From a bacterium (lineage in GTDB: Bacteria > Planctomycetota > Planctomycetia > Planctomycetales > Planctomycetaceae), in contig WGME01000001.1 in NCBI GenBank assembly GCA_016125225.1, positions 1 to 64,000 of the forward strand: DNA of 64,000 nt. Reading direction: 5' to 3'. The translations under genes were made by a program, and so were the position numbers. The notes beneath the pieces were generated by a model. That model worked only from the letters and a program-made list of their open reading frames with translations, did no database searches and was not told the DNA's origin. The stretch's first letter is position 1; every line of letters begins with the position of its first letter. Shown here in pieces: positions 12,019 through 17,379 of this stretch.

Positions 12019-12237
12019 GCTGGTTTATCCGTGCTGAATCTCGTGGGGGTGAATCGGGAAGGAATAACGTACACCATCTCCGAGCACCCATCAATATCGA
12101 CTGATGTCAAGTTTCCCGTGATGGCTTCGTCGCAGACACTAATTCTGATGGGGACGAACACCATGTGAACACTGGCAAATGCCCGGCCAACCCATCAAAC
12201 TGCGTCGATAGGTCTTCCGCTTTCAGGAGTGCTGTCG

Positions 12238-15200
12238 ATGCGGTTCTGTCTTTCGGTGTTTTGTCTCGGCTTGAGTTTCGTAGCTCCTACGCTGTTGTCC
12301 GCCGAACCGCTGACGCTCCACATGCGATCGCGGACCGAAGTGGCTCCCGATTCCGGCCGGTATCATGCGGTGACCCAGCCGGTGGAGTGGAACCCGAAAG
12401 AGACGGCGATTGTCGTCTGCGATATGTGGGACACACACACCTGTCCCAACGCCGCGTTGCGGGTCTCGCAGATGGCCCCGCGGATGAACGAAGTTCTGAA
12501 GGCCGCGCGGGCCAAGGGCATCTTCATCATTCATTCCCCCAGCGGGACGATGAAATTCTACGAGGAACATCCCGGCCGTCAGCTGGCGATGTCGGCTCCC
12601 ATGACCGAGCCGATCAAGCCGCTGCAGACCTGGTGCAAGATCGATCCCGAACATGAAGACCCGCTCCCCATTGATGACACCGATGGTGGCTGCGATTGCG
12701 AACGAACCTGGAAGCCGGGCGATCCGTATCCGTGGACCCGGCAGATCGCCACGATCGAGATCATGGACGGCGACGCAATCACCGATTCCGCCGAGGCGTA
12801 TTACCTGCTCAAGCAGCGGGGCATCAAGAACCTGATTGTCATGGGTGTGCACACCAACATGTGCGTCCTCGGCCGTCCGTTCTCGATCAGGCAGATGGTC
12901 TACCAGGATTTGAATGTCGCCTTGATGCGCGACATGACCGACACCATGTACAACCCGGAGATGAAGCCTTTCGTCAGCCATTTCACGGGGACCGATCTCG
13001 TTGTGGAACACATTGAAAAATTCTGGTGCCCGACGCTGATCAGTGGCGACTTCCTCGATGGTCACGAGTACCGCTTCCCCGCCGATACCCGGCCGCATGT
13101 GGTGATTGTGCAAGGCGAGTCGGAATACAAAACTGCCGAAACGCTGCCGAAGTTTGCGTTGGACCATCTCGGCAAAGATTACCGCGTCTCATTCGTCTGG
13201 CTCGATGAGAAATCTAATGCCAGCTTCCCCGGTATTGAAACGGTCAAAGATGCCGACGTGCTGTTCATCAGCGCTCGCCGCCGACCCATTCCTCCGGAAC
13301 AGATGGCGATTTTGAAAGCGCATGTCGCGGCGGGCAAACCCGTTATCGGTATCCGCACGGCGAGCCATGCGTTCCACCTGCGGAATCAACCCGCTCCCGC
13401 AGGACTCGCCGACTGGCCCGATATCGATGCCACCGTCTTCGGCGGCAGCTACACGAATCATTATGCTCACGACAAGCAGTCGACAATCTGGCCATTGCCC
13501 GAACGCAAAGACCACCCGATTCTCGCGGGTATTCCGTCGGCAGAGTTCCCCGGTGGTGGCGGCCTCTACCAGACCGCGCCATTGAAAGAAGGAGCCGTCG
13601 AACTGCTCCGTGGCAAAGTCGAAGGAGTCGAACAACCCGAACCTGTCGCCTGGACCTTCACCCGCCAAGACGGTGGCAAGTCGTTTTATACGTCATTGGG
13701 CCATATCGATGACTTCCAGCGTGCAGAGTTCACGACACTGCTGAAGAACGCGATCGCATGGGCGAGCGGGGGGCGTCAGCCCCCTGAACGGACTCCCAAA
13801 GCCACGGATAAATCGGTTTCGCTCAACGACACCGCTAATAAAATCGAAGTTAAGCAGACGGCATCGAACACGAGTGGAACACGCACTCAGGGGGCTGACG
13901 CCCCCCGCTCGCTCGTTGTTCCAGGCACCTGGAATGATCAATCGCCGGCTCTCAAAGACTATGACGGTTACGCGTGGTACCGGGCGAATGTCACCATTCC
14001 GGCGGAGTGGGCCAAGCGGTCGATGTACCTCTATGTCGAAAAGGTCGATAACGCCTGCGAGACCTTTTTCAATGGCGTGAAGATCGGCGTCAGTGGCAAA
14101 TTGCCGCCGGAGTATGAAAGCGGCCTCATCGGCAACGAGCACCGCTATGTCGTGCCGCCGGAACTGGTGAAAACCGATGGCCCGAACCTCGTAGCGATTC
14201 GCGTTTATGATCACGATGGCAACGCCGGTTTCAAAGGGATGGCCCCGCACCTGCTCGCCGGGAATGAAGCCATCTCTTTGGCCGGTACATGGGACTTCCA
14301 TGTCGGCGATGATCTGACACTTGCCTCCACACCGCTCGCGAAATTCGAAGCCTTCGCCAAGATCGGCCCGGCTCCGCAACTCAGCCGGTTTGCCACCGTC
14401 ATCCGTCGGCAAGCGCAGGACAAACCGCTGTCGCCGCAGCAGTCCCGCGATCTGTTCAAGATACCGGACGATCTCGAAGTCGACATCGTGCTGACTGAGC
14501 CGACGATCTCGCAGCCGGTCTTCCTCAATTTCGATGAACGCGGCCGCATTTGGGTGCTGAACTATCTGCAATATCCTGAGCCGGCGGGCCTGAAGCTGTT
14601 GAGCAAAGATCAATGGTGGCGGGCCGTTTACGACAAAGTCCCCTTGCCGCCGCCACATGGTGACAAAGGGGCCGACAAGATCACCATTCATGAAGACACC
14701 GATGGCGATGGCACCTTCGACAGCCATAAAACTTTTGTCGATGGCCTGAACATTGCCACGGCGTTTGCTCAGGGACGCGGCGGCGTCTTCGTCCTCAACC
14801 CGCCCTACCTGCTGTTCTATCCCGACAAGAATCAGGACGATGTGCCCGACAGTGATCCCGAAGTGCTGCTCGAAGGTTTCGGCATCGAAGATACGCACTC
14901 TACCATCAACAGCCTGCGTTGGGGGCCGGATGGCTGGTTGTATGCCGCTCAGGGAAGCACGGTCTCCGGGGCGGTGCGACGACCGGGCGAGAAGGCCGTC
15001 GTCCATTCGCAAGGCCAGAATATCTGGCGGTATCATCCCGAACTCAAGAAGTACGAGATCTTCGCGGAAGGGGGCGGTAACGCTTTCAGTGTCGAGATCG
15101 ATTCCCAGGGCCGCATCTTTTCCGGCCACAACGGCGGCAACACCCGCGGCTTCCACTACATGCAGGGAGCGTATCTGCAAAAGGGTTTCGGCAAGCACGG

Positions 15201-17379
15201 CCCCCTTTCCAACCCGTTCGCCTTCGGCTATTTCCCGGCGATGGAACACGGCGACTACGCCCGTTTCACGCACAACTTCATCATCTACGAAAGTGATGCC
15301 CTGCCGGAGAAGTATCATGGCGTGATTTTCGGCGTGAACCCGATCAACAGCCATGTGGTGCTGAGCGAACGCATCCCCGTCGGCAGCACCTTCAAGACCC
15401 GCGACATCGGTTTCGCGATTGATTCCTCCGACACCTGGTTCCGCCCGGTCGATATCAAAGACGGCCCGGATGGCAACATCTACGTCGCCGACTGGTACGA
15501 CGGCCAACTCGCTCACACGGCGAACTATCAAGGCGGTATGGACCGCGACCACGGCCGCATTTACCGCATTCGTAGTCGAAATGTTAGCCGCGACCCGCAG
15601 GGGAGCGCTGCAGCCAAGGCACGTCCGGCTTTGACGACGCTGTTCGCATCCACCCGAGCGGATGATATTCCTCATTCGAACGAGATCGCGAAGTACCTGA
15701 CATCACCGAATCGCTGGGAACGTCAGACGGCGTTGCGTGTGTTAGCTGATCGCCGTGAGGAACCTGCGGAGGCCTGGATTCCAATATCCGAACATGAAAG
15801 GGACTCAAATGGCGAATGGAAGGATCAGGAATTTCTGGATGGCATCTGGGCGGTTTTCCTCACGTCAGACGTCGATGAGAAGTCCGCGTTGGATAACTTG
15901 ACGCTCGGTCCACAGACGCGGCTCTGGACGATTCAACTGCTGGCGAATACTCAAAAGTTATCACCAGAGTTTTCCAAAGCCGTCATTGAGTTGGCCAAAG
16001 TCGAACCCGACATTCACGTCCTTTGTCAGCTGGCATCATCCGCGAAACGTTTACCGCCAGCGCAGTCGTTGCCCATCACTCACAACCTGATGACCCGGTC
16101 GCAGTTCATTGACGACCCACGTTTTCCGTTGCTCGTCTGGTGGGCGCTCGAAGCGAATGTCGAGCCCGCGCGCAATGAAGTCCTAGCGATGTTTCAGGAC
16201 GAAAAACTCTGGCGGGAACCCCTGGTCGAGAAAGAAATTTTGCCACGGTTGATGCGGCGGTTCGCGGCGACCGGTCAACGGGCCGACCTTGCCGTCTGCA
16301 CGCAGTTGCTGAAGTTTTCACCGACGAAGGAGACCACCGCTGCTCTCATGCGCGGCTTTGAAGAAGCCTACCAGGGCCGCAGCTTGAACAACGTACCGGC
16401 GGAGTTGGTGGAGGCGTTATCCAAAGCCGGTGGTGGTTCGCTCAGCCTCAAGATTCGGCAGGGTGATCGCGAGGCCACCGCTGAGGCACTCAAGGTTCTG
16501 GCGGACGAAAAGGCTTCCAGCGGCAAACGCGTCGAGTATGCCAACCTGTTCGGCGAAGTCACCTCACCCTCGGCTTTGCCGGTGATGCTGGAGGTGCTGG
16601 CGAAGACCAGCGACGACAACGTCCGCAGCACGATTCTCGGTTCGCTGCCGTCGTATAACGATGAAGATGTCCCGGTCACCGTCCTCAAACTTTACAGTCA
16701 ATGGACCGATGATGTCCGCAGTGTTGCCCAGTCGCTGCTGGTCAGTCGCAAGCCATGGGCGAAGGCGTTTCTCGACGCGATCGCCCGGGGAGATATTCAG
16801 CCTTCATCGATCCCCGTCGAAACCGTCCGCAAGTTGACGATCTATGGCGATACCGACATCGCCGCGACGGTGAAGTCGCTGTGGGGCGAAGTTGACGGGG
16901 CATCTACCGCCGAGATGCAGGCCGAGCAGCTACGGTTGACCGCAGCTCTCAATGATGGTGGCGGGAACCCCTATCCCGGCAAAAAGCTTTATATGCAGTC
17001 GTGCGGGAAGTGCCATGTGCTGCACGCACAAGGCGGCCAGATCGGTCCCGACCTGACCACCTTCAAGCGCGACGATGTGCCCCGACTATTAATCAACATC
17101 CTCAACCCCTCGGCGGAAATCCGTGAAGGGTACGAAACCCATGTCGCCATTCTCGATGACGGCCGCGTGGTGCAGGGCTTCCTGGTTGAGCAGGACCCGC
17201 AAGTGATCGTACTGCGGACCAGCGAAGGCCAGACGGTCTCCATCGAACGCGAAGGGATCGAGGAACACGTGGTGATGAAGAAGTCGCTGATGCCCGAGGG
17301 ACAATTGAAGGCCCTCAGCGATCAGGATGTCCGCGACCTCTTCGCCTACCTGCGCAGCACACAGCCCCTAAGCGATTGA
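12238..17379 (+). CDS. Giant multidomain secreted protein: isochorismatase-like, ThuA-like, jelly roll, PVC-type haem-binding propeller, HEAT, cytochrome c
   Basis: The 1713-aa product has a signal peptide (residues 1-22). Residues about 45-265 form a cysteine-hydrolase (isochorismatase-like) domain with acidic residues at 62/65 and Cys209 in HTNMCVLGRP. Residues about 285-508 are ThuA-like (FISARRRPIP, GKPVIGIRTASHAF). Residues 509-558 are encoded by an inserted palindromic element. A beta-galactosidase-type jelly roll follows (about 560-690), then the PVC-type membrane-bound dehydrogenase propeller (about 740-1115, GRIWVLNYLQYPEP, HEDTDGDGTFDS), HEAT-like helices (about 1130-1560) and a cytochrome c with CGKCH (1589-1593). 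ATG at 12238 has AGGAG 8 bases upstream. The combination suggests a periplasmic redox and hydrolytic enzyme of unknown substrate. Confidence 0.9.
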   Translation: MRFCLSVFCLGLSFVAPTLLSAEPLTLHMRSRTEVAPDSGRYHAVTQPVEWNPKETAIVVCDMWDTHTCPNAALRVSQMAPRMNEVLKAARAKGIFIIHSPSGTMKFYEEHPGRQLAMSAPMTEPIKPLQTWCKIDPEHEDPLPIDDTDGGCDCERTWKPGDPYPWTRQIATIEIMDGDAITDSAEAYYLLKQRGIKNLIVMGVHTNMCVLGRPFSIRQMVYQDLNVALMRDMTDTMYNPEMKPFVSHFTGTDLVVEHIEKFWCPTLISGDFLDGHEYRFPADTRPHVVIVQGESEYKTAETLPKFALDHLGKDYRVSFVWLDEKSNASFPGIETVKDADVLFISARRRPIPPEQMAILKAHVAAGKPVIGIRTASHAFHLRNQPAPAGLADWPDIDATVFGGSYTNHYAHDKQSTIWPLPERKDHPILAGIPSAEFPGGGGLYQTAPLKEGAVELLRGKVEGVEQPEPVAWTFTRQDGGKSFYTSLGHIDDFQRAEFTTLLKNAIAWASGGRQPPERTPKATDKSVSLNDTANKIEVKQTASNTSGTRTQGADAPRSLVVPGTWNDQSPALKDYDGYAWYRANVTIPAEWAKRSMYLYVEKVDNACETFFNGVKIGVSGKLPPEYESGLIGNEHRYVVPPELVKTDGPNLVAIRVYDHDGNAGFKGMAPHLLAGNEAISLAGTWDFHVGDDLTLASTPLAKFEAFAKIGPAPQLSRFATVIRRQAQDKPLSPQQSRDLFKIPDDLEVDIVLTEPTISQPVFLNFDERGRIWVLNYLQYPEPAGLKLLSKDQWWRAVYDKVPLPPPHGDKGADKITIHEDTDGDGTFDSHKTFVDGLNIATAFAQGRGGVFVLNPPYLLFYPDKNQDDVPDSDPEVLLEGFGIEDTHSTINSLRWGPDGWLYAAQGSTVSGAVRRPGEKAVVHSQGQNIWRYHPELKKYEIFAEGGGNAFSVEIDSQGRIFSGHNGGNTRGFHYMQGAYLQKGFGKHGPLSNPFAFGYFPAMEHGDYARFTHNFIIYESDALPEKYHGVIFGVNPINSHVVLSERIPVGSTFKTRDIGFAIDSSDTWFRPVDIKDGPDGNIYVADWYDGQLAHTANYQGGMDRDHGRIYRIRSRNVSRDPQGSAAAKARPALTTLFASTRADDIPHSNEIAKYLTSPNRWERQTALRVLADRREEPAEAWIPISEHERDSNGEWKDQEFLDGIWAVFLTSDVDEKSALDNLTLGPQTRLWTIQLLANTQKLSPEFSKAVIELAKVEPDIHVLCQLASSAKRLPPAQSLPITHNLMTRSQFIDDPRFPLLVWWALEANVEPARNEVLAMFQDEKLWREPLVEKEILPRLMRRFAATGQRADLAVCTQLLKFSPTKETTAALMRGFEEAYQGRSLNNVPAELVEALSKAGGGSLSLKIRQGDREATAEALKVLADEKASSGKRVEYANLFGEVTSPSALPVMLEVLAKTSDDNVRSTILGSLPSYNDEDVPVTVLKLYSQWTDDVRSVAQSLLVSRKPWAKAFLDAIARGDIQPSSIPVETVRKLTIYGDTDIAATVKSLWGEVDGASTAEMQAEQLRLTAALNDGGGNPYPGKKLYMQSCGKCHVLHAQGGQIGPDLTTFKRDDVPRLLINILNPSAEIREGYETHVAILDDGRVVQGFLVEQDPQVIVLRTSEGQTVSIEREGIEEHVVMKKSLMPEGQLKALSDQDVRDLFAYLRSTQPLSD
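13764..13910. repeat. 147-bp inverted-repeat element inserted in frame inside a CDS
   Basis: The left arm 13764-13787 and right arm 13887-13910 are perfect 24-nt reverse complements. Each arm is itself a hairpin (GGGGGC-GTCA-GCCCCC). Total length is 147 bases, exactly 49 codons, so the host reading frame continues. The translated segment is low in hydrophobic residues and rich in Thr, Ser and Lys, and lies between the ThuA-like and jelly-roll domains. Confidence 0.85.

Follow-up and report, generated by a model that had tools for sequence, protein, structure and literature searches.

The gene at 12238 to 17379 on the forward strand of the 64,000-nucleotide stretch analyzed here (the window) raises the question of how a perfect inverted repeat came to lie in frame within a multidomain protein, whether it arrived as one element, and whether it now serves its host. 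The gene encodes 1,713 amino acids from its ATG, within an open reading frame that runs from a GTG at 12229 to 17379 and is open through the element, as originally predicted. The protein combines isochorismatase-like, ThuA, beta-sandwich, DUF7133/PVC heme-binding, HEAT, and cytochrome c domains. According to the original prediction, a small mobile palindrome of 147 nucleotides (nt) had here become coding sequence and supplies a linker, a form of domestication said to be rarely documented.

The repeat itself proved as predicted. The core arms (13764 to 13787 and 13887 to 13910) are perfect reverse complements, and each is itself a GGGGGC-GTCA-GCCCCC hairpin; the perfect match even extends to 26 nt (13762 to 13787 and 13887 to 13912), with 99 nt between. 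The left arm, on the plus strand, consists of a foot, (GC)GAGC, followed by the hairpin and a TGA tail, and contributes the in-frame peptide ASGGRQPPE. The right arm, its exact reverse complement on the minus strand, contributes QGADAPRS, and the two are thus inverted with their GAGC feet outward. The 24-nt arm (≤3 mismatches) occurs twice in the window, compared with 0.00 occurrences expected from 100 dinucleotide shuffles of the window. When the element was folded with 2 nt on each side, none of 200 shuffles did as well under either DNA parameters (z = -6.8) or RNA parameters (z = -8.1).

Both arms belong to a dispersed set of REP-like hairpins with the pattern GAGC-GGGGGC-GTNA-GCCCCC-TGA, in which the third loop base is variable. 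The 26-nt pattern (≤3 mismatches) retrieved 19 copies from the 6.35-Mb host genome, compared with no matches for the reversed-control pattern at the same tolerance. Ten of these copies form five inverted pairs with feet outward (the window pair and four more), and six lie within two protein genes. In genomes of the same family, the 24-nt arm (≤2 mismatches) was found in 40 of 170 (host included), spread over 24 of 58 genera, and these 40 genomes hold between 1 and 112 copies each (the most in G101); the reversed control gave no match in any of the family genomes listed. The arm search suggested with the original prediction therefore returned a family, not an arm confined to one place in the genome. 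The consensus of G004 and G043 shows strong conservation of GGC-GAGC-hairpin-TGA plus one base, the bases TTG after TGA and one base are partly conserved in the host genome, and GAAC and TAGC occur as variants of the GAGC foot. As palindromes of 20 to 40 nt with an unpaired foot and many copies per genome, these hairpins are of the REP type, and the inverted doublets with feet outward have the arrangement of REPINs. The strong predicted RNA fold would suit a hairpin that arose by chance or was retained in the gene for RNA or regulatory reasons, yet we regard either as extremely improbable: shuffling predicts no such arms, the compared orthologues lack them, and the dispersal of the same sequence across 40 genomes contradicts both.

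We examined the setting of the arms in the protein. By Pfam, the left arm starts at the end of the ThuA domain (13099 to 13764; amino acids 291 to 512 in GTG numbering), and the BetaGal_ABD2-like beta-sandwich (13933 to 14214; amino acids 569 to 662) begins just past the right arm, in agreement with the predicted position between ThuA-like and jelly-roll domains. An AlphaFold model of this fragment, built on an input alignment of 19 sequences, has the last ThuA helix at residues 210 to 224, the first strand of the beta-sandwich at 271 to 275, and pLDDT values below 50 at 229 to 263, within the 223 to 272 occupied by the element. The arms are thereby predicted to sit in a disordered linker that joins ThuA to the beta-sandwich.

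Relatives that lack the arms also have a linker at this point. Across 18 relatives, most of them from records with Planctomycetaceae or Schlesneria metagenome titles, the linker measures 23 to 78 residues (median, 29.5). The window linker measures 52 residues; discounting the arms reduces it to 36, and discounting the whole element reduces it to 3. The 18 overlap, partly by sharing species, with a 30-locus orthologue set in which 19 loci, the window's own counted, include the ThuA part. No locus in that set besides the window has both arms. The left arm peptide (≤2 changes in 8 residues) was absent from the 29 other loci and from the 18 relatives; at the same tolerance, the right arm peptide matched once in each set, and this sole match (IGALAPRS, L040/L316) belongs to a different palindrome. 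The latter is an unrelated, imperfect, in-frame inverted palindrome in the same linker of L316 (3001 to 4515; fragment codons 230 to 287), 49 nt long with 12 mismatches. Its paired peptides are LAPRSPALRGEGLGVRG and TPHPNPLPAKPGRE, and a similar peptide occurs in a UvrA linker of L190. A peptide downstream in the window protein, RRQAQDKPLSPQQ, was considered as repeat derived and rejected, as it is conserved in relatives. Thus, the insert is missing from the compared orthologues, as had been anticipated, and the same 49 residues were not found conserved in orthologues from unrelated genera. The proposed search for an empty site with a target duplication found neither at base-exact resolution among the relatives compared, all of which are too diverged.

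Taken together, these data make it highly probable that a pair of inverted REP-type hairpins landed in frame in a preexisting, disordered ThuA/beta-sandwich linker. Because the 18 relatives already have a linker there, the element does not supply it, contrary to the original prediction, and the arm peptide looks like a tolerated passenger. That the peptide was instead co-opted into a functionally important linker, a true domestication, seems improbable to us. The frame does stay open and the element fills the predicted disordered linker, as domestication would have it, but relatives manage without arms, and the linker varies freely in sequence and length. The arms are also still perfect DNA palindromes, which is expected of a recent insertion and not of selection at the protein level. 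Domestication as first proposed is thus unproven, and toleration suffices.

The same hairpin lies in frame in other genes. In the host genome, a UvrA-type open reading frame on the minus strand (L100, G000 C19; 2,452 residues from stop to stop) contains four REP arms at three sites, all in frame. In 29 orthologues, none of which carries the arm peptides, the linker at the first site spans 36 to 67 residues. The host linker there has 57, a length that drops to 41 if the arms are discounted and to 14 if the whole pair is. The linker at the second site has 52 residues in the host, compared with 14 to 40 in these orthologues. We note that this reading frame also has other repeat-like peptides (QPSTLNSQ). 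The 60 loci fetched across genomes hold 94 REP copies. When 10 reading frames that extend over arms were compared with Pfam, nine had a match, and in four (L235, L266, L276, and L278) the matches flank or surround the arm; in the remainder, the arm may be outside the folded region or upstream of the true start. These intragenic candidates were chosen partly by their arm peptide. The four genes, all in relatives, encode a lysyl-tRNA-synthetase-like protein, a valyl-tRNA synthetase, a squalene-hopene-cyclase-like protein, and a PSCyt/PSD1 protein. The cyclase-like protein has one arm in G043 and, in a second genus (G087), a pair a few residues away. Relative to PDB entry 3g1z, the G004 lysyl-tRNA-synthetase-like protein is longer by 26 residues, the size of its doublet; relative to the congener G003, it is longer by 14. 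The 26-residue gain suggested insertion of a unit, a reading that the congener value of 14 did not bear out. Alignment of the spacer between these arms to the G003 loop did not surpass that of shuffled sequences (P = 0.61).

These lengths bear on whether the arms arrived together, as one REPIN-type doublet of about 147 nt (arms plus the 99-nt middle), a reading that we consider possible but somewhat doubtful. In Pseudomonas, the doublet is what has been proposed to move in REPINs, according to the available text of PMC3116915, and inverted pairs with feet outward are common here: five among the 19 host-genome places and 12 in the fetched G004 loci, where 24 of 37 copies have a partner. The 26-residue gain over 3g1z also favors it. 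Against a doublet unit, spacers between paired arms differ in both sequence and length within each of three genomes (G000, G003, and G004). In the window gene, removal of the unit would leave a linker of 3 residues, shorter than in any of the 18 relatives, and in UvrA it would leave 14 (57 minus 43), again below the range of the 29 relatives. The 14 residues gained over G003 approach the size of two arms (16) more closely than that of the unit (26). Furthermore, 13 of the 21 copies fetched from G043 are exact, yet inverted partners numbered none at ≤3 mismatches and three at ≤6 (control, 0).

Spacer sequence decides nothing between a unit and single insertions. The 99-nt window spacer (13788 to 13886, plus strand) is single copy in the host genome, with no second match below an E value of 0.3; judged by its length, it is probably native linker. 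Spacers of the host genome differ from one another, the exception being a weak match between C27 and C37 (P = 0.01 to 0.04, uncorrected). Homology between the window and UvrA spacers, plausible by eye, was rejected (P = 0.36 for DNA and 0.22 for protein). Because the middle is single copy, spacer matches are weak, and the 3-residue remainder falls below the minimum of 23, a single 147-nt mobile element is unsupported. Two separate insertions around native sequence fit the linker lengths better, an edge and no more.

A more general form of separate insertion can be put forward tentatively: the single hairpin of about 28 nt, rather than the doublet, may be the mobile unit in this planctomycete family, with linkers receiving one insertion after another and lengthening by whole hairpins. 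Repeated landing at the edges of flexible linkers would then leave two independent insertions bracketing native linker, a pattern that the window gene, UvrA, and the G004 synthetase-like gene would exemplify. This reading draws on the unrelated palindrome pair of L316, which occupies the same linker, and on the second-genus pair in nearly the same loop of the cyclase-like protein.

A candidate for the mobilizing enzyme emerged in G004, in the form of a Y1 transposase whose gene is bracketed by two inverted REP pairs, one per side. We delimited the corresponding HuH/Y1 clade at an E value of 1e-27, our own cutoff in a score distribution with no sharp gap, which places it in 35 of 170 genomes; pieces in G113, G020, G068, and G070 score below this cutoff. 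At ≤5 mismatches, REPs lie on both sides within 300 nt at 17 of 30 clade loci, compared with 1 of 46 other Y1 loci, and on at least one side at 20 of 30 compared with 3 of 46 (the 46 were drawn from 60, with 14 short loci, the clade gene L150 among them, omitted). At ≤3 mismatches, REPs are nearby at 8 of 30 clade loci and on both sides at 5 of 30, compared with none of the 46 other loci on both sides. The reversed control gave no matches around either group. At two clade loci (L194 and L213), the hairpins that flank the transposase gene include copies identical to the window arm. The REP is present in 17 of 35 genomes with the clade and 23 of 135 without it (Fisher P = 2e-4, kinship ignored).

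The clade proteins retain the catalytic HxH motif (30/30) and tyrosine (29/30, the remaining one being a gap), and 28 of 30 have Q at Tyr+4. The transposase match to Pfam PF01797 (Y1_Tnp; cutoff, 23) scored 32.4 bits, and that to the RAYT model NCBIfam NF047646 (REP_Tyr_transpos) scored 36.8 bits, under the cutoff of 80. As single-domain HuH Y1 transposases flanked by REPs, the clade proteins resemble those of the RAYT/TnpA_REP type. The link between clade and hairpin is not absolute, since G043 (29 copies) and G090 (36 copies) are not among the 68 of 170 genomes that match the transposase. The host genome likewise has no clade member, its one match (E = 3e-11) belonging to another subfamily; host copies may thus be remnants or may have been moved by something else. 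Two RAYT-like host genes (L030 and L031; G000 C37:199127 and C36:78266) were rejected as candidates, being flanked by another palindrome, TGTGTGCCACTGGC-GCCAGTG. A Y1 paralogue (L006; G000 C37:10242) was also rejected; the structured repeat that flanks it, present as two direct copies and with CTTAGCCCCCGGT/ACCGGGGGCTAAG ends, is a third palindrome. Outside the clade, a Y1 gene in G005 (L145; C1:536628) is bordered on either side by a hairpin variant with a TAGC foot. Thus, of the small mobile palindrome first proposed, the mobile character of the arms gains support from the dispersed family and the transposase clade, whereas the 147-nt unit gains none.

By analogy with what has been proposed for REP and RAYT systems, the hairpin would be cut and moved as single-stranded DNA by a transposase from this clade or by one since lost. 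Insertions into folded domains or out of frame would be purged by selection, and survivors would thus be seen in linkers. Our literature search showed little on such systems in this phylum, which now has a REP family with an apparent transposase, together with clear cases of a mobile hairpin entering protein linkers. If single hairpins are indeed mobile, the doublet model of REP spread would be called into question, and the growth of linkers by mobile DNA would become directly testable.

The in-frame hairpin pair is a well-supported new case of a phenomenon that has already been described in other bacteria. In-frame palindromes are in print, contrary to the original view that such cases are rarely documented. 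The available text of Di Nocera (2013; PMC3733652) describes in-frame REPs and dimers in genes, names uvrA as one of the targets, reports members in Planctomycetes, and suggests linkers or loops as sites tolerant of intragenic REPs. The present family resembles those GTAG and CGTC REPs in its in-frame copies and dimers, uvrA included, and in its planctomycete hosts. However, its GAGC foot matches neither superfamily as described there, and CGTC appears only at the loop. CGTC REPs are reported, in that same portion of the source, without an associated transposase, whereas an association is seen here. Among the papers listed in a search by title and abstract, none concerned this GAGC-foot family. 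Rickettsia palindromic elements (Ogata, 2000 and 2002; reviewed in PMC10969869) are likewise palindromes, each about 150 bp, that were inserted into protein genes without breaking the frame, a likeness of description. As far as the available part of the review describes them, they repeat as whole elements with a conserved peptide, whereas here only the arms repeat.

With REP/REPIN and RAYT (TnpA_REP) systems, as outlined in PMC3116915 (see also PMC2817692), the family shares a foot and GC-rich hairpin, inverted doublets, and flanking copies around an HuH/Y1 transposase gene. It differs in its GAGC foot, its unconserved spacers, the conserved single copies of G043, and the below-cutoff score of its transposase against the RAYT model. 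A further comparison is with the class 3 TnpA_Y1 proteins (PMC6006769), which the available text describes as planctomycete HuH proteins with a W-T motif and flanking high-copy hairpins, "reminiscent of a REPtron." Our clade shares these features, but it pairs a GAGC foot with Q at Tyr+4, where the foot reported for class 3 in that text is CnGA and the spacing is Y----Q.
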